This document shows, one piece after another, positions 30,785-46,842 of a DNA stretch of 60,866 nucleotides. A model generated the notes under the pieces. It did not search any database. It was not told where the DNA came from and saw nothing but the letters and a program-made list of their open reading frames with translations. Source of the stretch: an uncultured Alphaproteobacteria bacterium (lineage in GTDB: Bacteria > Pseudomonadota > Alphaproteobacteria > Rhodobacterales > Rhodobacteraceae); contig CACIIZ010000003.1 in assembly GCA_902586855.1 (NCBI GenBank), forward strand, positions 1 through 60,866, read 5' to 3'. Every line of letters begins with the position of its first letter. Position 1 is the stretch's first letter. Position numbers and translations under genes: made by a program.

Positions 30785-31768
30785 CTATTCAGTAGAATTA
30801 CCAAAATTTGTTCCCGCACCTCCGGACTCCGATGAAGACCAATCCCTTTTAACCCCTAATTTAAGCAATATTGCCGAAGCAACAAAAATAGACGAATAGG
30901 TGCCTATCAGAACTCCCCAAATCATAGCAAATGTAAACCCTCTAATTACTTCTCCTCCAAAGATGTAGAGAGCCAAAAGTGCCAGAAGAGTGGTTACAGA
31001 GGTCATTATAGTTCTACTCAAGGTGTCATTAATCGATCCGTTGAGTAAGTCCACAAGGGATTTTGATTGGTATTGCTTCAAATTTTCCCTAATTCGATCA
31101 AAAACAATAACCGTATCGTTCAGAGAGTATCCCACAATAGTCAACAGCGCAGCTATAATAGACAAATTAAATTCTAAACCAATTATTGAAAAGATACCGA
31201 TTGTAATGATAACATCGTGAAGTAACGCCAGTACTGCGCCGAGTGAAAATTGCCACTCAAATCTGATCCAGATATAAAATAGGACAGCAAAAACTGCCAA
31301 ACATACCGCTAATACTGCCTTTTGAACCAATTCACCAGAAACCTTAGAACCTACGCTTTCTGTCTGTAAAAAGGTCACCGAGTTTAGTGCCACCTCCAAA
31401 CTCTTTTTCACATTAATGATCATCTGGTTTTGAACTTCTTCATTACCCTCTTGCTGTTCTATTTTGATCAAATATAAAGGGTTACTTTCTGATCCTACAA
31501 TCACAGCGGTTGGATCAGAAACCTCCGTGACTGTCAAATCACCCAAATCTAAATCACTCAGGGTTTTTCTGATTTTGCTAATTGAACTACCTTCAGATGT
31601 CTTGATCATCAGCATAGTCCCTCCCCTAAAATCAATTCCATAATTTAAACCATTTATGAAGTAGAATATCAAAGACAAAATTACGGCGAAACAAGATATC
31701 CAAAGGGCAACTCTCGATTTACCAAAAAAGTCTATAGACGTATTGCTCGGAACTAATCTCAGTCTCAT
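30785..31768 (-). CDS. secF: Protein translocase subunit SecF
   Basis: An RND-like membrane protein that with SecD uses proton motive force to complete Sec export. It has 327 residues, six membrane helices and the SecF signature GLNYGIDFRGGTMLMI, with VGYSLNDTVIVFDRIREN in helix 4. It follows secD by 10 bp, so the two are co-transcribed. Confidence 0.96.
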   Translation of the reverse strand: MRLRLVPSNTSIDFFGKSRVALWISCFAVILSLIFYFINGLNYGIDFRGGTMLMIKTSEGSSISKIRKTLSDLDLGDLTVTEVSDPTAVIVGSESNPLYLIKIEQQEGNEEVQNQMIINVKKSLEVALNSVTFLQTESVGSKVSGELVQKAVLAVCLAVFAVLFYIWIRFEWQFSLGAVLALLHDVIITIGIFSIIGLEFNLSIIAALLTIVGYSLNDTVIVFDRIRENLKQYQSKSLVDLLNGSINDTLSRTIMTSVTTLLALLALYIFGGEVIRGFTFAMIWGVLIGTYSSIFVASAILLKLGVKRDWSSSESGGAGTNFGNSTE

Positions 31769-31778
31769 GGGGACATCC

Positions 31779-33425
31779 TCATACTACCAATTTTTTTGGC
31801 CTAGAAAAATCTATGTAAAAAGCTACCAACAACCTGGTCAAAAACACTGCTGTAAAGACCGAAGTAATAATGCCTATACCTAAAGTAACAGAAAACCCCC
31901 TTATAGGACCAGAACCTAGTGTAAACAAAATTATAGCCGCAATAAACGTGGTTACATTAGCGTCAATGATTGAAGTCAAGGCCTTTTCATATCCCAATTC
32001 TATAGCCCTAAAAATAGTTTTGTTTACTTTTAGTTCTTCCTTAATTCTTTCAAAAATTAAAACATTAGCATCTACTGCCATTCCTATTGTTAAAACGATA
32101 CCTGCTATACCAGGAAGCGTTAGTGTCGCACTCATCGCCGCCATTATTGAAAAAATTAATGCAATGTTGATAATCAGACCAATATTTGCAAAAAATCCAA
32201 AAAGGCCATAGGTTAATACCATAAAAATCAGAATTAATAATCCTGCTATAATTGCCGCAATCTTTCCTGACTGAATACTATCGGCACCAAGTTCTGGACC
32301 TACAGTTCTCTGCTCAAGAACCTTGATTGAAGCCGGTAGTGCGCCCGCACGCAAAAGGATTGCTAGCCGATTGCTTTCATCAACTGTAAAACTACCTGTG
32401 ATTATTCCTGAACCTCCTGGAATATGGCTCTGAATTATTGGCGCCGAGATTACCTCTGAGTCTAAAACAATTGCAAAGGGATTACCTATGTTTTCCTTGG
32501 TATAATCACCAAACTTTCTTCCCCCTATAGGATTAAATTGAAAAGACACCGCAGGTCTATTGTTTTGGTCAAAGGAAGGTTGAGCATTTGTTAATTGTGA
32601 ACCAGATACAACACTTTTTATCTCCAATGAAAAACATACGTTAGAGTCTTCACTAGATGGCAAAATTATGCTTTTCATATTTGATTTTTTACTGCAGGAT
32701 ACGTTGTTGCTTATAACGGGATGAAATGTCAGTTTGGCTGTTTTACCTATAAGCCTCAATAATTCTTCAGCAGATCCCAATCCGGGCACTTGTATTAGAA
32801 CCCTCCTTTCACCTTGCCTTTGAATAGTTGGTTCTCTTGTCCCAGCTTCATCAACCCTCCTGCGGATTATTTCAAGAGATTGCGCCATAGTCAGCTTGTC
32901 AATTCTTGTTTGCTCAATTTCACTCAGCGAAATTCTTATGGTTTGATCATCGAAGGCAGTAAATTCCAATATTCCTCTTGATTTACTCTCTTGTTTTAAA
33001 AACTCTATTGCTCCTTGGAGACCCTCTTTCTGACCCAGTTTTATCAACAAATCGCTAAAGCCCCCTGAAATTTGCTTAATAGAACCAACAGAATCTCTGA
33101 TCGACCTCAGCTTTTTCCTCATTTCAGGCCAGTAAGAATTCAACCGCTCCGAATACACTTCCTCAAGGCTTACCTCAACTAAAACGTGAGCACCTCCACG
33201 GAGATCTAAACCCAGGTTCACTATTTTCGATGGCGCCCATGAATACCATGATGATTGCAGATTTCTTGACAACTCATTTTCTGCTAATTGACCAAGGGCC
33301 ATTTGGGCTTGAATATCATTATATTTCTCTACTTGTGAATAAAAAAGGTGCGGGATGACACTATAAATGCCCCATAGACAGGGGATAAAGATCAAAAATA
33401 TTTTCCACCAAGGAAATCTCAACAT
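31779..33425 (-). CDS. secD: Protein translocase subunit SecD
   Basis: The larger SecDF subunit, 548 residues: an N-terminal helix, a big periplasmic domain at about residues 60-375, and five more C-terminal helices. The motif NLGLDLRGGAHVLVEV is present, as are GIAGIVLTIGMAVDANVLIFERIKEE and the C-terminal VTLGIGIITSVFTAVFLTRLL. Its start lies 40 bp after yajC; the order yajC-secD-secF is the standard one. Confidence 0.97.
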   Translation of the reverse strand: MLRFPWWKIFLIFIPCLWGIYSVIPHLFYSQVEKYNDIQAQMALGQLAENELSRNLQSSWYSWAPSKIVNLGLDLRGGAHVLVEVSLEEVYSERLNSYWPEMRKKLRSIRDSVGSIKQISGGFSDLLIKLGQKEGLQGAIEFLKQESKSRGILEFTAFDDQTIRISLSEIEQTRIDKLTMAQSLEIIRRRVDEAGTREPTIQRQGERRVLIQVPGLGSAEELLRLIGKTAKLTFHPVISNNVSCSKKSNMKSIILPSSEDSNVCFSLEIKSVVSGSQLTNAQPSFDQNNRPAVSFQFNPIGGRKFGDYTKENIGNPFAIVLDSEVISAPIIQSHIPGGSGIITGSFTVDESNRLAILLRAGALPASIKVLEQRTVGPELGADSIQSGKIAAIIAGLLILIFMVLTYGLFGFFANIGLIINIALIFSIMAAMSATLTLPGIAGIVLTIGMAVDANVLIFERIKEELKVNKTIFRAIELGYEKALTSIIDANVTTFIAAIILFTLGSGPIRGFSVTLGIGIITSVFTAVFLTRLLVAFYIDFSRPKKLVV

Positions 33426-33465
33426 TTTATTAGATTACCCTTTATTCAGAAAGTACGGTCTAAAC

Positions 33466-33780
33466 TTATTTCTTTTCAAGCACATTCACAATCGTTGATC
33501 TCATAACCCTAACTTTTGTATTTGCGGCAATTTCAAGCTCAATTTCAGACTCATCTTTCACTTTTGTTATCTTACCTATTATACCGCCTTGGGTCAAAAC
33601 CTGATCACCACGCTTTAAGGCAGTCACCATCTGATTATGCTCTTTTGCCTTTCTTTGCTGCGGCCTAATTATTATAAAATACATGATTGCAAAAATGAGC
33701 ACTAATGGGATCAAAGAACCAAAAGTCGACCCAAAGCCTCCAGATCCAGTCGCCTGAGCATAAGCAGGGGTGAAAAACAT
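33466..33780 (-). CDS. yajC: Preprotein translocase subunit YajC
   Basis: A small accessory subunit of the SecDF complex, 104 residues. One membrane helix (LIPLVLIFAIMYFIIIRP) is followed by QQRKAKEHNQMV and a basic cytosolic beta domain (GDQVLTQGGIIGKITKV). The ATG at 33780 has AAGG 8 nt upstream and yields the usual MFFTPAYAQ start; an in-frame TTG five codons earlier was rejected. First gene of yajC-secD-secF-Mth938. Confidence 0.96.
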   Translation of the reverse strand: MFFTPAYAQATGSGGFGSTFGSLIPLVLIFAIMYFIIIRPQQRKAKEHNQMVTALKRGDQVLTQGGIIGKITKVKDESEIELEIAANTKVRVMRSTIVNVLEKK

Positions 33781-33938
33781 GATAGTACCTTTCAAATAAT
33801 TTAAGTAATGATCTTTAAATTTGAGACAAGAATAACCATTCTCAAATACTTCTCAATCCGCCTTTCCGACATTAACTATTTAAAAGCATTTGATCGGTCA
33901 AGTGTAATAATAGCAATGGGGTTAAAACTAAAGTAAAT

Positions 33939-37738: not shown

Positions 37739-37825
37739 TCATTTTTTTTCAATAAGTTATAAATTTTTTATTTTTTTTCTAAACAAATTTGTTTTTCAGT
37801 CGTTACAGATACAAATTTTAGAAAA

Positions 37826-37834: not shown

Positions 37835-37867
37835 GTTGGAAACCTGCCTATAGCAAGGGGTACATAA

Positions 37868-40800
37868 ATGGCTAAAATAGCATCCGCTACGGCGGTGATG
37901 GAGGCATATTACAAATTAACTCAGTCACCATCAAAAATGGAAGAGGATTTAAAAAGGGAACTTGCCGAACAGGCAAAAAATCAAAATGGTGAAACATCAT
38001 CACTAGATGATTTGACTGATGTGATTGGAGCCATAAAGGATGAAGTTCAATTTTTAAATAAGGCAAAAGATACGTTTAACGAAATTTATACGATTCTAGA
38101 AGAAGCTTATACTTACCTTATTAGTTTAAATCAGAAGTCCATCGAGGGGCAGTCACAACTAGCCTTAAAAGAAAAATTAGATGGGTACATTCAGAAAATT
38201 GACTCAGCTGTTAGTAATATGCATGACGTCAATTTTTCTCCCGAAATGATTGATTATATCAATCAACTTACTGAGATAGACCTTAGCAATATTCATTCAA
38301 CCCTGAGTGATCACGAAGTACAAACGAAGTCTAGATTGCTTGGAGGAATAGACTCTAGCATCTCTACAACTGAAATTCTTGATGCCAAGAGCATCACAAT
38401 CACCGGTTATCGCGGTAAAATTGCTCTTTCCCAATCTACGGGTCAATCAGCAAAAACTATAGCTTCTTCCATATCAGCAAACGAGGTAAAAACGGGAGTG
38501 GTAGTTGATGCTAGAAACACCCTATCCATTTCTGACCTAAGTGCAAATGGTACATTTACTTTTAAAATCACTAATTCAAAGACCGGAAGCTCTGGGCATA
38601 CCATTTCTGGAATAAATATCACTGATAAGTCTGACCTGACTCCACTACATGATGCTATAAATTCTGCATACGGTAACACAAACATACGAGCTGAAATAAA
38701 TGACGCTAAATCATTGGTTAGTATGATAGACGATACTGGGGATAACATAAACCTTACATCGGTAAATGAAGCAAGCGGGGTTAAAACCTTTAACGTTTTC
38801 TCAGAATACCGCAAAAGCTCAAGAGATGCTGCCTTAAGAGATGTTGCAATGAACTTTGGCAGTGATGCTGAACGTGCTGGTGGGTATATTGAGTTCTACG
38901 GGCATGACAAACTTCGCGCCGAAGACATTACTATCGAGAAAATAACTTCTGCTAGTTCAAACCTAGGAGTAGTTTCTATTGTTGGGAATCAGATTAGTAT
39001 AGGAACTGGGACAGATTCATCACCAATCGGATATATTCATTCAACTATTGATGGAGAAGATGGTGCCCGGCTTCGGATAAAATTCTATGAAACTATTTTT
39101 CCTAATGGTGATTTTGAAGCAGGAAATATTGGTGACACCTCATTAAATGGATGGACTATAGCAAATCAGCAATTTGTTTTAGGTTCTGGTCAAATTGGTG
39201 GGTTAAACACCCCTACTGATGATAATTATCCCCTTAATAATAATGGACAATTAGACGTTGGAAACTTAACATCTGGAACTTTTTCGTCTAGTTTGGTGGC
39301 TTCTACTCAAGGGGCCGAGCATGGTAAAGCTTTAGAGATGAAAAGTGATACTTTATGGACAAATGATCGAAGTGTAGCCCTTGGGGGACAAGGAAATGCG
39401 ATTGCCCGAGGACCCTACATTGTTAGTGATAACCCATTATATCTCAGATCTGGTGAAGAGGTTTCATTTGATTGGCGTGCCGTTGGAGGTGGAGATGCCT
39501 ATGATGTCTATGGATATTTAGTTAATTCTGATACAAACGAATTTATTACTATCTTAAATCAAACAGGTGGTGATAATGGTGGAGGAATTTCTTATCCTAA
39601 CCCAACAAATTGGGCTAATTCTAAAACTGATATAACCAAATCTGGAAATTATAAATTTGTTTTTCTGGCAGGAACATACGATGAAACTGGTGGAGGATTA
39701 ATGGGTGCAAACCTATATGTCGACAATATTGCGATAACCCCCGGACCTTCTCTTGCCATAAATAATGATGTGCTAACAAAAATAGCAAATAAGATTAGCC
39801 TAAAAGATGTCAACATGGACCTGACAGATCAGGATTTAAATCCTCGGATCGAGGCAGCCATTGCTCCAATCGGAGCATCAGTTACTACCAAAGCGGTTGG
39901 GGATAGCCGAACAACTTCGTTAAGCTCTTCAGCGGGGGGCTTAAGTGGAACTCATACAATATCTGTTGCAGGAATTTATGATACTGTAGGAGAAAGCATT
40001 GACACCAGAACTGTCACCATAGCGGCCAATGCCTCTGCTAAACTAATTAGCGAACAACTTAACGCTCAGATTGCGCATACAAATGTAGGTTTTACAGCTA
40101 AAACTGGACTAGTAATATCAGGAGCGGATGGGAATGATACCGTTTTGTTCAAGCTCTCAAATAACAACGGAGGAACTGCAAATATCTCTGCAAATATAGC
40201 TGGTGATCTCAACGATTTAAAGGACGAAATTAATGACGCTACTGGAACAACTGGAATTGTTGCTGCAAATGGAGTAGTAGCAACAGATGATGCTGGGAAT
40301 GCTTTGTGGACTTTAGATGATGATAACCTGTTGTTAACTCATACATCTGGTGAAGACATAGTGATCGCTGAACTTGCGGGTATTGGGTTAAATATTCAAC
40401 CAGCAAATTACTCTGCTACCACTTATGAGGATGATACGACACCAGTTACATTGCAAGCAGCCCGAAAATTAATTGTTGATCCCATAACTAGTGATCAAAG
40501 GGTTAAAATTACTGCTGCTGCAAATTCTATTCAAGCTACCTACAGAATAACTGGAACAAATCTTTCGGGAGGAGCCCAAACCCAAGATGTAACAGTCGCT
40601 CATAATGCCACAGGACATACTAGCGGTAGTTTTGCAACCGTAACACAGGTTCAACTACTCGCTGGTACTTCAGGGGCTACCAAAGTTGGAACTAGTTCTG
40701 ACGATGATGCTGTGGCAAATTCCTCGCCTGTCAATCAATCAAACTTATCAATTTCGGGTGGAACAGCATATTTGGATTTGGGAGAATATGTTAGGATACA

Positions 40801-43285
40801 AGCAGAAGCCAATACTAAGGCCACAAATTTCACTATTTATGGTAATAACGCAGATGGTACTGCAGCAAATGAAACGATTACTAGCAACCCAGGAAGTGCT
40901 GTTGCAACAACTAATAGATTTACTACCATTACAAGGATTGCAGCTGCAGGCGATATTGCTGGAGGTGAGTTAATACAAATCAGAGCTGGTAATGGAACAA
41001 CAAACGGGACACAATTCACTATCTCTGGAACTAATGCAAGCGGAGCATCTATAAATGAAACGATTAGCAGCATAGCTAATACTGCCGTGGCCACTAGCCA
41101 AAGATTTACCTCCGTGAGCCAAATTGCGGCTGACGGTGACCTAAATGGAACTGTAATCGCTGGTATTGCATCAAACACTAGCCAGCTAGCCACAAATCAG
41201 ACTGTGAGCGGTGCTGGGAACTTAACTTTAACAAGCAATACAACTACTCCTGGCAATCGCTCCGTGATAGCAGGAACTGCATCCGATGCTGACCAATTTG
41301 CGGTAAGCCAAACAGTAAGTTCTGCCAGCGATTTAAGTCTAACCAGCGGTACGCCTATCGAATTAACAGATGGCAAAGCTGTGACACTCTTCACCCCCAA
41401 TAATGGTGTAGTAGGACAATATACAATAACTGGGAAAAATAAGTCGGGGACTACCATAACCGAAACCCTAACTGGTTCCATTAATAGTACCGTAACTGGT
41501 TCAAACCTTTTTATGACTGTCACCAATGTGGCGGTGGATAGCTTAAGTCCCGGAAATATAAAAATAGGAACTGATAGAGATGATGATGGAATTTCTACAA
41601 ATTCTGCCTATACCGGAAATGGAACTGCCACGATAAATGGAGCCTATCAGTCAGGAGGGCGAGCTATACTAAACACCTCTGATTATGACCTTGCCGTTGT
41701 TGGAACAGATCGGGAAGGCAACGTAATTTCTGAAACAATAAATGTGGCCAATAATGCCGAAGCGGAAAGCTCTAATTATTATGGAACTGTTACATCGATA
41801 GCCGTTTCAGGAAGTGGAACCAATACCGGAAGGGTCCGCGTTTATGCGAAAACTGCCGGTGATGATATTGCTAGTAGTCAAATACCAAACTCAGGAGGCA
41901 ATTTGACCTTAACAGGAGCCAGTTATCAAAATGACTCTGGGGTTGTTGTTGGAGCGCTACAAGCGACTTCAAATCAGCGCTTTGCTATTACATCTAGTGA
42001 TAACTACTATTCCCTGCAAAATACAGGAGATGAATTAGATCCAGTAATTTTTACTACTCCGGTCCCAAGAGACACTTCAGTAGGTCTAAAAGTCAGCACT
42101 AATAGTAGCCATGAGGTGTTTTCAACAGGAGAGTTGTTTCTGAACTCCAATAAAGCTTTTACCGTAACTCAGCAAGATGCATCAGAGGAGTTAATGAAAA
42201 TAACCATAACAGCTGACGGAAGCACTCCTTCCAGAAACTTCACTGTCACAGGAACAGATCAATTTGGAACAGCTGTTTCGGAAACCATAGCCAGTGCAAC
42301 TAATGATACTGTCACGGGGAGTACTCCCTTTGCAGTAGTAACGGGAGTTAGTGTAAACGCAGATACAGTTGGGGCCGTTCAAATCGGTACGGCATTGGAC
42401 CCTGATCTTGTTTCTCAGTCTCAACGAAGTAGTGCCGACGGGAATCTTATTATTAACGGAGCAAGAACTAATACAGGAAATCCAGGTGTTATAACTTTTT
42501 CCATGGCCCATTCCTTCACAAACAACCACACCGCTAGTTTCACCCTTGAGGGAAGTACTTTGACCTACACAGCTGATGGATCAGAGACAGCTGCCCAAGC
42601 CCGCGACAGGCTCCTTACCAATCCCGGGGCAAACGAATTTCAGGGATCTGATAATGAAACTATAACAAGCAGTTCAGCAGGGGTTCTGCAAGTAACTGAC
42701 AAAAATGGAGTAAATCTATTCACCATTCAAAGTGATGGATCATCAACAGGACTCCGACTGACGGAGAGCAACCCCGATGGAAACTTCACTGTAACAAAGG
42801 TCTCAGGAAATGTACCCCCAAATGAAGTAAATACTGTCACAAGCTCCACTGCAAGAAGAGCAACAATAATTGATGACGGTTCAACATTCTTTTCAAATAC
42901 AACAAATAAAAGTGAAGTACGTTTAGCAAATTTCAGCCTAGAGCACGAAGTTGTGGATCAAGAATTTACTATACGTTATGCTCACGCTCTGACCGATATG
43001 AAGGGCTCCTTGACAACGATTGAGTCCGAGTTGTTACGGGAAACCGAAACAGATAGTGCTGGGGATGACCTGTCAATTAATGCGGGCAAATATAGCTATT
43101 CCAAGGAACAATTTGTTGAGATGGGTTTGACGACTGCAGAAAGATTAAAGAATCTAACAAGTAAAACACTGTTGATAAAAAATATTTACTCTCAACGGGC
43201 AAACCTCAACATGCTGATGAGTGGGCAACTTTACGGTTTTGCACTAATGAATTTCAAAGGTAACTTTGATCTTACAAAAAAATAA
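37868..43285 (+). CDS. Giant flagellin-like repeat protein, 1,805 aa
   Basis: A very large, acidic, Thr/Ser/Asn/Gly-rich protein that I place in no named family. Residues 1-155 are helical and resemble the flagellin D0/D1 entry (NEIYTILEEAYTYLISL, then KEKLDGYIQKIDSAVSN). Residues about 170-213 (AKSITITGYRGKIALSQSTG, then TIASSISA) resemble the Flagellin_IN motif. Residues about 408-625 look like a carbohydrate-binding jelly roll (FPNGDFEAGN... to NLYVDNIAIT). From about 877 to 1530 there are six divergent beta repeats with TGTDxxGxxxxETI and a late IGTxxDxD. The C-terminal 120 residues are helical and do not clearly match the flagellin D0 end. There is no Cys, Sec signal, LPXTG or RTX nonapeptide. 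AAGGGG precedes the ATG. It may be a filament or fibre subunit. Confidence 0.75.
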   Translation: MAKIASATAVMEAYYKLTQSPSKMEEDLKRELAEQAKNQNGETSSLDDLTDVIGAIKDEVQFLNKAKDTFNEIYTILEEAYTYLISLNQKSIEGQSQLALKEKLDGYIQKIDSAVSNMHDVNFSPEMIDYINQLTEIDLSNIHSTLSDHEVQTKSRLLGGIDSSISTTEILDAKSITITGYRGKIALSQSTGQSAKTIASSISANEVKTGVVVDARNTLSISDLSANGTFTFKITNSKTGSSGHTISGINITDKSDLTPLHDAINSAYGNTNIRAEINDAKSLVSMIDDTGDNINLTSVNEASGVKTFNVFSEYRKSSRDAALRDVAMNFGSDAERAGGYIEFYGHDKLRAEDITIEKITSASSNLGVVSIVGNQISIGTGTDSSPIGYIHSTIDGEDGARLRIKFYETIFPNGDFEAGNIGDTSLNGWTIANQQFVLGSGQIGGLNTPTDDNYPLNNNGQLDVGNLTSGTFSSSLVASTQGAEHGKALEMKSDTLWTNDRSVALGGQGNAIARGPYIVSDNPLYLRSGEEVSFDWRAVGGGDAYDVYGYLVNSDTNEFITILNQTGGDNGGGISYPNPTNWANSKTDITKSGNYKFVFLAGTYDETGGGLMGANLYVDNIAITPGPSLAINNDVLTKIANKISLKDVNMDLTDQDLNPRIEAAIAPIGASVTTKAVGDSRTTSLSSSAGGLSGTHTISVAGIYDTVGESIDTRTVTIAANASAKLISEQLNAQIAHTNVGFTAKTGLVISGADGNDTVLFKLSNNNGGTANISANIAGDLNDLKDEINDATGTTGIVAANGVVATDDAGNALWTLDDDNLLLTHTSGEDIVIAELAGIGLNIQPANYSATTYEDDTTPVTLQAARKLIVDPITSDQRVKITAAANSIQATYRITGTNLSGGAQTQDVTVAHNATGHTSGSFATVTQVQLLAGTSGATKVGTSSDDDAVANSSPVNQSNLSISGGTAYLDLGEYVRIQAEANTKATNFTIYGNNADGTAANETITSNPGSAVATTNRFTTITRIAAAGDIAGGELIQIRAGNGTTNGTQFTISGTNASGASINETISSIANTAVATSQRFTSVSQIAADGDLNGTVIAGIASNTSQLATNQTVSGAGNLTLTSNTTTPGNRSVIAGTASDADQFAVSQTVSSASDLSLTSGTPIELTDGKAVTLFTPNNGVVGQYTITGKNKSGTTITETLTGSINSTVTGSNLFMTVTNVAVDSLSPGNIKIGTDRDDDGISTNSAYTGNGTATINGAYQSGGRAILNTSDYDLAVVGTDREGNVISETINVANNAEAESSNYYGTVTSIAVSGSGTNTGRVRVYAKTAGDDIASSQIPNSGGNLTLTGASYQNDSGVVVGALQATSNQRFAITSSDNYYSLQNTGDELDPVIFTTPVPRDTSVGLKVSTNSSHEVFSTGELFLNSNKAFTVTQQDASEELMKITITADGSTPSRNFTVTGTDQFGTAVSETIASATNDTVTGSTPFAVVTGVSVNADTVGAVQIGTALDPDLVSQSQRSSADGNLIINGARTNTGNPGVITFSMAHSFTNNHTASFTLEGSTLTYTADGSETAAQARDRLLTNPGANEFQGSDNETITSSSAGVLQVTDKNGVNLFTIQSDGSSTGLRLTESNPDGNFTVTKVSGNVPPNEVNTVTSSTARRATIIDDGSTFFSNTTNKSEVRLANFSLEHEVVDQEFTIRYAHALTDMKGSLTTIESELLRETETDSAGDDLSINAGKYSYSKEQFVEMGLTTAERLKNLTSKTLLIKNIYSQRANLNMLMSGQLYGFALMNFKGNFDLTKK
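40496..42457 (+). repeat. Six divergent protein-level beta repeats within the giant gene
   Basis: Units of about 75-95 residues start near residues 877, 966, 1041, 1165, 1262 and 1443, with spacers between some of them. A shared core reads about (F/Y)T(I/V)(T/S)GT(N/D)xxGxxxxETI, then N-T-(A/V)-(T/S)-x4-F-x2-V(T/S)x(V/I), then an IGT or IRA element followed by Asp-rich text and (N/D)L-x-(I/L)-x-GA. The copies are diverged at DNA level, so this is an old expansion, not a recent duplication. Similar GTDxxGNxxTETI modules occur in phage fibre and decoration proteins. Confidence 0.6.
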
Positions 43286-44954: not shown

Positions 44955-45087
44955 ACCAACAAGAAATAACTCCATAAAGTTCTTTTGTGAACAAAAAGTT
45001 GAAAAAATAAATTCCTTTTGCATTAAGAATTGACTTCCACAAGTCGTTAACGGTCTTGGTGTTTACCTAATATGATAAAGTTTGCTG

Positions 45088-46842
45088 ATGCTTGATTATG
45101 ATGAAACAGTTTCCTTTGGTTTAGATACGAGCAATTCCCGCACTATCACAACCATGCTTCAAAGCGAATTACAGGATGATGCTCACAACGAGCCTCTGAG
45201 TCCTAAAGAAAAAAAGCTACACAACCGAGCACGATTGGATTACATCAAAAAAGAATTAATAAATAGAAACTTCTCAAATGCGCGAAAGGACCAAGAAGGC
45301 CTTGCAAATTATTTTAGGAGTAAACTCAAGCAAAACCCCTTTGACCCGGATTTAACTCTGAGTCTTGGAAACTGTCTGATCAAACTAGGCCAAATAGACC
45401 GAGTAAAGAGACTCTATTCTCGTTACGATAGGAAGAATGAAAATGCTACACTAATACTTCTTCGTTTGGCGGATATCTTCCTAGAGGAAGAATCTTTTAA
45501 GAATGCTGAATATTATTACCAGCAAGTTTTAGACTTGGGTACAGGATTATCTCAAGGGCAAATATATGTAAAACTAGCCTACTGTTATCATAAATTGGGA
45601 GCATTCAAGCGAGGCTCAAAGTTTGCAAATTTAGCTCTTAAAGACAAAACACCTACGATGATGCCAGAAATATGCTTTTTGTTTGGAAATTTGCATTTGG
45701 GAGCAAAAGATTATAGAGGGGCTGTTAGAGAGTACCAAAAAGGATTACGAAATCTTGAAAGTTACTCAATAGCAATTAAGAAAATAATAACCTCTTCAAC
45801 TACTAATCAGAAAATATGTGTTAAATCCTTTAATTTAGCATTGAACCTTGCCTCCCCAAAAAAACTTGAACCAAAAATCTTAAACAACCTTGGGAACGCT
45901 CTTAATAAACTAGGAAAATATACTTCTGCCAAAAAATGTTTGGAGAAAGCACTTTCCTTAAATAAGTGTGCTTATGCCTATAATAACTTAGCATTAGCTC
46001 TTAAAGCTTTAGGAAATTCAAGAGACGCTTTAGTTAATCTATATCATGCTAATGCGATGGATCGCAATTCTCCGCTTATCAATTATAACATTGCTGAAAC
46101 TCATCTAGTACTAGGCAATACAGTTCAAGCAACAATACATTTTGAGAAAACTTTGGAACTAGAAAAAAATAATGAATCAGCAGCATTCAAGTTAAAGCTT
46201 CTTTTAGGTGAACCAATAAACATAGCTCCAAAAGAGTATGTTTCGGACTTGTTTAATAAGTATGCAGAAACTTTTGATAGACATTTGATTTCAGTCTTAA
46301 AATACAAAGTTCCTAATGAAATTCATAGAGATATATTGAGAGCGTATGGAAAGTCCACGAGTTTGGGTAGAGTTCTAGATCTAGGATGTGGTACTGGGTT
46401 ATGCGGATTCCCACTGAAAGGTCGATGTGAAGAATTAGTTGGAATTGATTTGTCAGAGAGCATGCTAATAAAAGCAAGCCAGAAGTCAGCCTACACCCAA
46501 TTAAAAAATGTGGAGATACTCAAATATCTCAAGGAGTCAAAATCGAAGTTTGATTTAGTCTTAGCCGGAGACGTTTGCATTTATTTTGGTTCACTTAATA
46601 AATTGTTCCGTTACTGTGCGAGTGTTTGCAAAAACGGTAGTCGATTTATTTTCTCGATTGAGACATCACATTGCGCAGATTTTACGCTTAATTTAACTGG
46701 ACGTTTTTCCCACAACAAGAACTACATATCTCATTTGGCAACAAAATATCGCTGGAGAGTTGACGGTGAGAAAGGAATAGACATTAGACTAGAGGGTGAA
46801 AAAAGAGTGCAAGGTTTATTATTCACTCTTCTTAAAGAGTAA
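45088..46842 (+). CDS. TPR-repeat protein fused to SAM-dependent methyltransferase
   Basis: A 584-residue protein. About 370 residues of TPR-like helical repeats (LGNCLIKLGQIDRVKRLYSR, LGNALNKLGKYTSAKKCLEK, ALNLASPKKLEPKILNN) come first, followed by a Class I methyltransferase domain with VLDLGCGTGLCGF and GIDLSESMLIKA. The post-motif LVLAGDVCIYFGSL is also typical. Such TPR-methyltransferases occur in alphaproteobacteria; targets are unknown, and modification of sugars, proteins or small molecules is possible. An alternative TTG start is two codons earlier. It is divergent from the CIA30 gene, with a 133-bp gap. Confidence 0.8.
   Translation: MLDYDETVSFGLDTSNSRTITTMLQSELQDDAHNEPLSPKEKKLHNRARLDYIKKELINRNFSNARKDQEGLANYFRSKLKQNPFDPDLTLSLGNCLIKLGQIDRVKRLYSRYDRKNENATLILLRLADIFLEEESFKNAEYYYQQVLDLGTGLSQGQIYVKLAYCYHKLGAFKRGSKFANLALKDKTPTMMPEICFLFGNLHLGAKDYRGAVREYQKGLRNLESYSIAIKKIITSSTTNQKICVKSFNLALNLASPKKLEPKILNNLGNALNKLGKYTSAKKCLEKALSLNKCAYAYNNLALALKALGNSRDALVNLYHANAMDRNSPLINYNIAETHLVLGNTVQATIHFEKTLELEKNNESAAFKLKLLLGEPINIAPKEYVSDLFNKYAETFDRHLISVLKYKVPNEIHRDILRAYGKSTSLGRVLDLGCGTGLCGFPLKGRCEELVGIDLSESMLIKASQKSAYTQLKNVEILKYLKESKSKFDLVLAGDVCIYFGSLNKLFRYCASVCKNGSRFIFSIETSHCADFTLNLTGRFSHNKNYISHLATKYRWRVDGEKGIDIRLEGEKRVQGLLFTLLKE

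Follow-up and report, generated by a model that had tools for sequence, protein, structure and literature searches.

A putative giant flagellin paralogue with phage-type beta repeats and an apparently exchangeable insert in a genus of Rhodobacteraceae

Described relatives and the giant gene

The conserved core is the usual mark by which flagellins are identified. A flagellin homologue described as a surface protein is represented by PDB entries 2zbi, 3k8v and 3k8w, which we take to be the cell-surface flagellin of Sphingomonas sp. A1, involved in alginate binding. The giant protein described here resembles it through a weak fold match, but the chains in these entries are much smaller and, to our knowledge, contain no insert or repeats of the kind reported below. 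Giant flagellins of Bermanella and Oleibacter carry DE regions, and DE matches are also recorded in Pseudomonas (PMC6248924). Our protein shares with the giant flagellins a flagellin N-terminus, a length above 1,000 aa, a duplicated outer unit and a further insert, and its two D2-like units could match the DE regions in kind; its best fold match is likewise to a Pseudomonas protein (FliC D2/D3). Unlike the giant flagellins, it has lost the core signature, its C-terminus is unrecognisable and a long phage-type repeat arm has been added. As in flagellinolysin and further flagellins that carry foreign domains in the hypervariable region (PMC5595980), its outer region holds a foreign module; however, Pfam finds no protease domain in it, and its core is degenerate as well. 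Campylobacter jejuni FlaC, a flagellin that is secreted and not assembled (PMC5466977), offers a parallel for a flagellin paralogue that may remain unassembled. FlaC keeps D0-D1 and largely lacks D2-D3, whereas the giant protein is the opposite. The same beta repeat occurs in a viral protein encoded near capsid genes; that protein is small, has a single copy and belongs to a virion gene cluster, whereas the giant flagellin paralogue has six copies. In the latter the core is eroded and the outer part has grown, mixed with phage-type and adhesin-type modules that are also found in FlgK. A survey of titles and abstract openings in the open-access literature returned no report on phage-type domains in flagellins or FlgK, or on the giant protein itself.

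The window, that is, the whole stretch of DNA analysed, comprises 60,866 nucleotides and comes from an assembly of 1.79 Mb that is 67% complete. On its forward strand a single uninterrupted frame (37868-43285; ATG at 37868, stop at 43283-43285, no internal stops) encodes 1,805 aa, the product size given by an earlier, sequence-only reading of this DNA. A ribosome-binding-site-like AAGGGG lies at 37855..37860 (+), and AGGGGTACA is invariant in the seven aligned orthologues. The giant gene is a real gene, and it is under purifying selection: over the N-terminal 165 residues, comparison with the gene of genome G004 gave a dN of 0.085 against a near-saturated dS of 1.8. When 147 relatives were searched, the N-terminus was matched in seven genomes, all of the same genus (7 of its 12 genomes, the source genome included). 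As far as the contigs reach, all seven have an AMP-binding ligase, a ketopantoate reductase, the giant gene and a proline racemase-family gene in that order, and a closely related ketopantoate reductase was found in exactly these seven. Neither the giant gene nor the close reductase was found in the remaining five genus genomes, three of which gave distant reductase matches only; these five are incomplete assemblies, so that absence cannot be scored as gene loss. A phage origin of the whole gene was rejected on the grounds of this synteny and of a viral scan with the whole alignment, which used two N-terminal patterns and turned up no relative. Searches with the entire window protein (P0001) gave nothing over threshold in Pfam and nothing useful in PHROGs, the PDB or NCBIfam.

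In the genus no flagellar genes adjoin the giant gene, and no Flagellin_N or FliD_N match lies within the window. This agrees with one part of the earlier statement that flagellar, secretion and phage genes are missing nearby; the secretion part does not hold, as SecD, SecF and YajC genes lie at 30785-33795, about 4-7 kb upstream. These three are general housekeeping genes. Three genes downstream of the giant gene, in the syntenic block, a frame at 45082-46842 encodes a TPR protein fused to a methyltransferase domain.

The N-terminal part, the core signature and the C-terminus

What kind of protein does this gene encode? Based on sequence comparison, we interpret the N-terminal part as a divergent flagellin. 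In a BLAST alignment, residues 42-300 run in register with a canonical flagellin of the genus (1,112 aa; its residues 67-331), a protein that passes both Flagellin_N and Flagellin_C. The alignment scores 66 bits without and 45 bits with composition adjustment, and none of 200 shuffles reached 66 (largest 28.9). The helical, D0/D1-like region (residues 1-165; 37868..38362, +) is weak by itself, because it scores 25.4 bits and the best shuffle 24.3. With hhalign, an N-terminal profile restricted to the genus scores 11.3 (E 0.0027) against 25 flagellin N-termini, and the same profile with the homologue P0008 added scores 77.7 (E 1.9e-5; reversed flagellins 0.2), a rise that owes much to P0008, since P0008 alone scores 96.4. 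This homologue of 1,044 aa, from genome G348 of another genus, matches residues 28-476 of the giant protein with 117 bits and passes Flagellin_N (36.7 bits against a cut-off of 26.6), while its NCBIfam flagellin match stays below threshold (42 vs 531 bits). Its gene sits between fliL and FlgE/F/G, sigma-factor, ParA/FlhG-like, FlhF-like and FlhA-type genes, FlhF and FlhG being named by eye; a frame adjoining it in this cluster (L044:5483-6124, contig C70) matches ribosome recycling factor with 32.4 vs 29.7 bits. No direct hhalign match was obtained between the helical N-terminal profile and P0008 (1.2) or a flagellin of a third genus, G239 (0.6). The latter, an 863-aa true flagellin that passes Flagellin_N, Flagellin_IN and Flagellin_C, carries the block 337-799 of the giant protein at 31% identity (E 1e-46 in a set of 16 sequences).

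Residues 166-330 (38363..38857, +) form a first D2-like unit. A Flagellin_IN-like stretch had been proposed from the letters alone, and it is indeed present, albeit below the Pfam cut-off (16.6 vs 22.7 bits for the cut-out stretch 145-331). Two such units can be discerned, at about 174-300 and at 695-839, and the second (39950..40384, +) matches FliC and FlgK by BLAST. Residues 331-407 (38858..39088, +) are a conserved block that is also found in the G239 flagellin and in an adhesin-like protein encoded on contig C11 of the source genome. Flagellin_N was found above the Pfam cut-off neither in P0001 nor in its N-terminal piece, for which Pfam returned sub-threshold matches only, the best being a coiled-coil PI3K model (17.5 vs 31.5 bits), and none to flagellin. 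The comparisons show homology with the flagellin N-terminal core and a D2-like unit at a threshold below that of Pfam, and flagellin searches run at the Pfam threshold miss such members. Against PDB sequences the N-terminal profile found no flagellin (best E 0.12, TFIID bromodomain chains). A D0/D1 profile (A7) found the source genome only among 390 genomes of the order, a draw that excluded the other genus members found earlier. With a longer N-terminal profile, matches arose in 28 of 394 family genomes; judging by position and frame length, with few of the matches read, most of them come from the D2-like stretch that flagellins and long FlgKs contain.

The predicted structure of the N-terminal part has a mean pLDDT of 48.6; its block means are 24-44 over residues 1-160 and exceed 60 in just two stretches, about 221-290 and 371-380. 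In a Foldseek search the first 14 matches of this model were all flagellin or FliD (one FliD), three of them with E below 0.001; the best was Pseudomonas FliC D2/D3, and the cell-surface flagellin entries appeared with E values of 0.01-0.05. As the model is poor, these fold matches speak mainly for the D2-like unit. The flagellin-like N-terminus suggested earlier is supported by sequence and, weakly, by fold. The FliD match and a module in common with FlgK might place the giant protein among paralogues of the junction or cap proteins (FlgL or FliD type); however, hhalign of the N-terminus against FlgL, FliD and FlgK gave only 0.1-0.4 where flagellin gave 11.3, and separate fliD, flgK and flgL genes exist. 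We reject an identity as FliD, FlgL or FlgK, and a paralogue of that kind seems extremely improbable.

LSSG...DDAAG, which we take to be a flagellin signature segment and which is visible in the flagellin sequences compared here, falls in a gap of the giant protein. At the other end, which the earlier reading took to be helical, residues 1656-1805 (42833..43282, +) are conserved across the genus. A Flagellin_C-like C-terminus was not recognised there, either by Pfam (no match) or by hhalign (E 0.32 and 0.19), and outside the genus the C-terminal profile found nothing better than a chance-level E of 0.15 in 394 genomes. A weak flagellin match, in register, came from the C-terminus of P0008 (5.1, E 0.0076); we do not use it as evidence, because an unrelated reversed control reached 4.3. 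One homologue modelled whole had a pLDDT of 35.1, a low confidence. We place the giant protein in the flagellin family by descent, on the strength of its sequence, as a member that fails two usual flagellin tests.

How would such a protein be deployed? Its flagellin homology would suit a bulk subunit building a thick filament, as in Bermanella and Oleibacter, whose giant flagellins with repeat inserts form filaments at least 30 nm wide (PMC6248924). Given the loss of the LSSG...DDAAG segment, an unrecognisable C-terminus and the presence in the genus of three canonical flagellin types of about 550, 724 and 1,112 aa, the protein is probably not a bulk subunit, and we consider a thick filament made of it distinctly unlikely. 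Loss of the same segment, the precedent of FlaC and the fold matches to cell-surface flagellin are in keeping with a protein that is exported by the flagellar path and left unassembled, as a secreted or cell-surface flagellin-like product. Against this stand the reversed domain content of FlaC and the termini of the giant protein, whose conservation within the genus suggests that they still bind something; the unassembled state appears unlikely to us.

Phage-type repeats, the insert and the module in common with FlgK

The protein has six beta repeats, all on the + strand: residues 873-969 (40484..40774), 969-1047 (40772..41008), 1030-1129 (40955..41254), 1166-1263 (41363..41656), 1260-1355 (41645..41932) and 1439-1537 (42182..42478). 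The repeat profile was built from six segments of the giant protein, whose own six copies are thus found by construction. It detects six full copies and one partial copy (residues 1133-1162, before the fourth repeat), with two neighbouring pairs overlapping; in the other five full-length proteins it gives 5 to 9 matches apiece, counting weak ones. The TGTDxxGxxxxETI repeats that had been picked out by eye are borne out by these matches. Between the fifth and sixth copies lies a strongly conserved block, residues 1356-1438 (41933..42181, +), which is partly recognised in P0008.

A scan of IMG/VR with a single repeat gave 46 stretches that matched the pattern, and 14 of them encode a relative, with one frame in each of the 14 loci (L143-L156) scoring E below 1e-8 with the repeat profile. 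The viral relative is a small protein of about 200-315 aa with one repeat copy, and in the two loci examined (L147 and L148) its gene stands two places downstream of one that matches PHROG major head families. When built from six viral proteins alone, a profile finds repeats in all six full-length giant proteins at 61-89 bits (89 for the window protein), and the repeat region alone (873-1537) scores 127 bits with it, where the best of 200 shuffles reached -34. Applied at E 1e-4 to 510 frames of at least 150 aa from L001-L142, the viral profile matched frames of the giant gene and a FlgK of G348 only, in 12 rows of which several are pieces or copies of one gene; the G348 protein passes FlgK_D1 and contains one copy at 75.5 bits. 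Based on these profile matches, we interpret the repeats as homologous to a domain encoded near capsid genes in viral contigs. Neither the whole repeat region nor one repeat had a significant match among annotated phages, nine pieces of the protein gave nothing better than E 0.048 in PHROGs, and PDB searches with the repeats gave nothing useful. One viral relative, compared with annotated phages, matched four Caulobacter phage records over residues 103-209, almost wholly outside the repeat. The sequence-only reading had called the repeats phage-fibre-like. Their phage-type character stands, but the fibre is not supported: in both viral contigs inspected, the relative's gene lies close to one for a major head protein, and the PHROG comparison gave no sign of kinship with phage tail fibres.

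Residues 408-650 (39089..39817, +) form an apparently exchangeable insert, likened to a jelly roll in the sequence-only reading, which is absent from two of the six full-length proteins and for which a PDB search gave nothing useful. It is present in 6 of 295 family genomes, and its carriers include the G239 flagellin and a 1,521-aa DUF4347/cadherin/RTX protein of the source genome (L006:7576-12141, contig C11 of G000; 36-41% identity). An insert in common with such a protein, together with a locus isolated from flagellar genes, could betray a large adhesin that leaves the cell by another export path and has acquired flagellin-like domains. However, the RTX and cadherin matches present in the C11 protein have no counterpart in P0001 in Pfam, the N-terminus is not strongly hydrophobic, and flagellin homology begins near it; moreover, P0008 is encoded in a flagellar cluster, and the giant gene is preceded by the promoter-like element described below. 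A non-flagellar adhesin is, in our judgement, very unlikely.

Residues of about 1534-1671 recur twice, at 64-68% identity, in a 1,687-aa FlgK of the source genome; we delimit this common module as residues 1538-1655 (42479..42832, +). The FlgK (L007:4681-9744, contig C31) passes FlgK_D1 and is encoded with flgH, flgI, flgL and fliC. In other members of the family, frames of about 1,335-1,450 aa match the Flagellin_IN-like stretch and were judged by eye to be long FlgKs.

The alleles of genome G003 (NAT102) reveal a mosaic pattern. Its N-terminal 165 residues are 98% identical to G005 at the DNA level, while residues 408-480 are 99% identical to the window genome and 61% to G005, and residues 481-560 are 95% identical to the former and 52% to the latter. 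Over 481-744 a second G003 contig shares 97% identity with the window; thereafter it is 90-98% identical to G005, with two exceptions, 745-872 (G005 79%, window 82%) and 1264-1355 (G005 68%, window 86%). The two contigs (L019 and L017) differ by 7-23% of their DNA where they overlap (77-93% identical), so the bin holds two alleles of the giant gene. That the first contig is a chimeric assembly is unlikely, given that just to the left of the insert, over 331-407, its identity to both parents is only 77-79%. The pattern looks like interspecies exchange of a surface cassette.

A promoter-like element and the proposed role

An element CTAAA-N15-GTCGTT, resembling a sigma28 (FliA) promoter, lies at 37779..37804 (+), 64-89 bases before the start of the giant gene, and is the single match in the window, where 0.14 were expected. 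It aligns in all seven orthologues, which invariably have the TAAA box and GTCGT; three read GTCGTA and one reads TTAAA. A like element is found upstream of P0008. In a set of 18 other flagellar upstream regions, a loose form of the pattern occurs in nine, including those of fliS, fliL and flagellin genes (500 shuffles: mean 0.5, largest 3), and the strict form in eight (0.014 expected, largest 1 in 500 shuffles). This count does not cover the fliD upstream regions of G002 and G006, which were set aside beforehand. One of the 18 regions, that of the contig C71 flagellin, was already known at the time the pattern was defined, and in G000 a single intergenic stretch serves both fliS and fliD. 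Of the 31 strict-pattern matches in G348, 9 fall in a single 52-kb flagellar contig (0.73 expected, p 3e-8), one of the nine being the P0008 site that helped to suggest the pattern. On the other side, whole-genome counts in three genomes never show the pattern more often than its reversed control (16/25, 15/48 and 31/40). The orthologue alignment and the counts upstream of flagellar genes argue for a promoter-like element common to the giant gene and other flagellar genes. In Rhodobacter sphaeroides, fliC and fliD are driven by FliA (PMC7277832).

Based on the above, we somewhat favour a model in which the giant protein is a flagellum-exported, surface-decorating and probably adhesive flagellin paralogue, a minor component instead of the bulk filament subunit. 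The gene would be transcribed by sigma28 after hook completion, and the product would be exported through the flagellar type III path. Export by this route is suggested by the homology, the promoter-like element, the lack of cysteine and the lack of a strongly hydrophobic N-terminus; all six full-length proteins are free of cysteine, and the giant protein has no Sec-like signal. Small amounts might then reside on the flagellar filament or at its base, or else on the cell surface, where the insert and the repeat arm would face outward and offer a variable surface for recognition or adhesion. The adhesive function is probable, judging from the modules and the recombination only. The earlier suggestion of a new filament or adhesive fibre subunit survives in so far as an adhesive or filament role is still possible; a new kind of filament is not needed, because the genome has a flagellar system that could serve for export, the element upstream resembles those of other flagellar genes and modules are shared with FlgK.

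More tentatively, it is possible that a degenerate flagellin and FlgK share a phage domain whose gene neighbours those of the capsid, present in six copies in the flagellin and accompanied by a recombining recognition cassette, and that together these create a surface displayed on the flagellum, rapidly exchanged and either adhesive or turned towards phages, on a flagellin that is no longer a propeller. If the protein is displayed on flagella, the motility organelle would act as a carrier of exchangeable surface modules, and structural domains of virions and flagella would be linked.

The source genome (G000) has flgH, flgI, flgK, flgL, fliC, fliD and fliS, all away from the giant gene. A canonical giant flagellin, with open frames of 1,115-1,145 residues, occurs in 9 of the 12 genus genomes (e.g. 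L046:6243-9581). A sequence TTGGCAT-N6-TGCA, sigma54-like by eye, precedes the canonical giant flagellin of G005 and the 724-aa fliC of G000. Finally, two large frames and one small frame, TPR-like by eye, lie between two flagellin genes of G000 (L049:856-5763, contig C71) and might encode flagellin-modifying enzymes.
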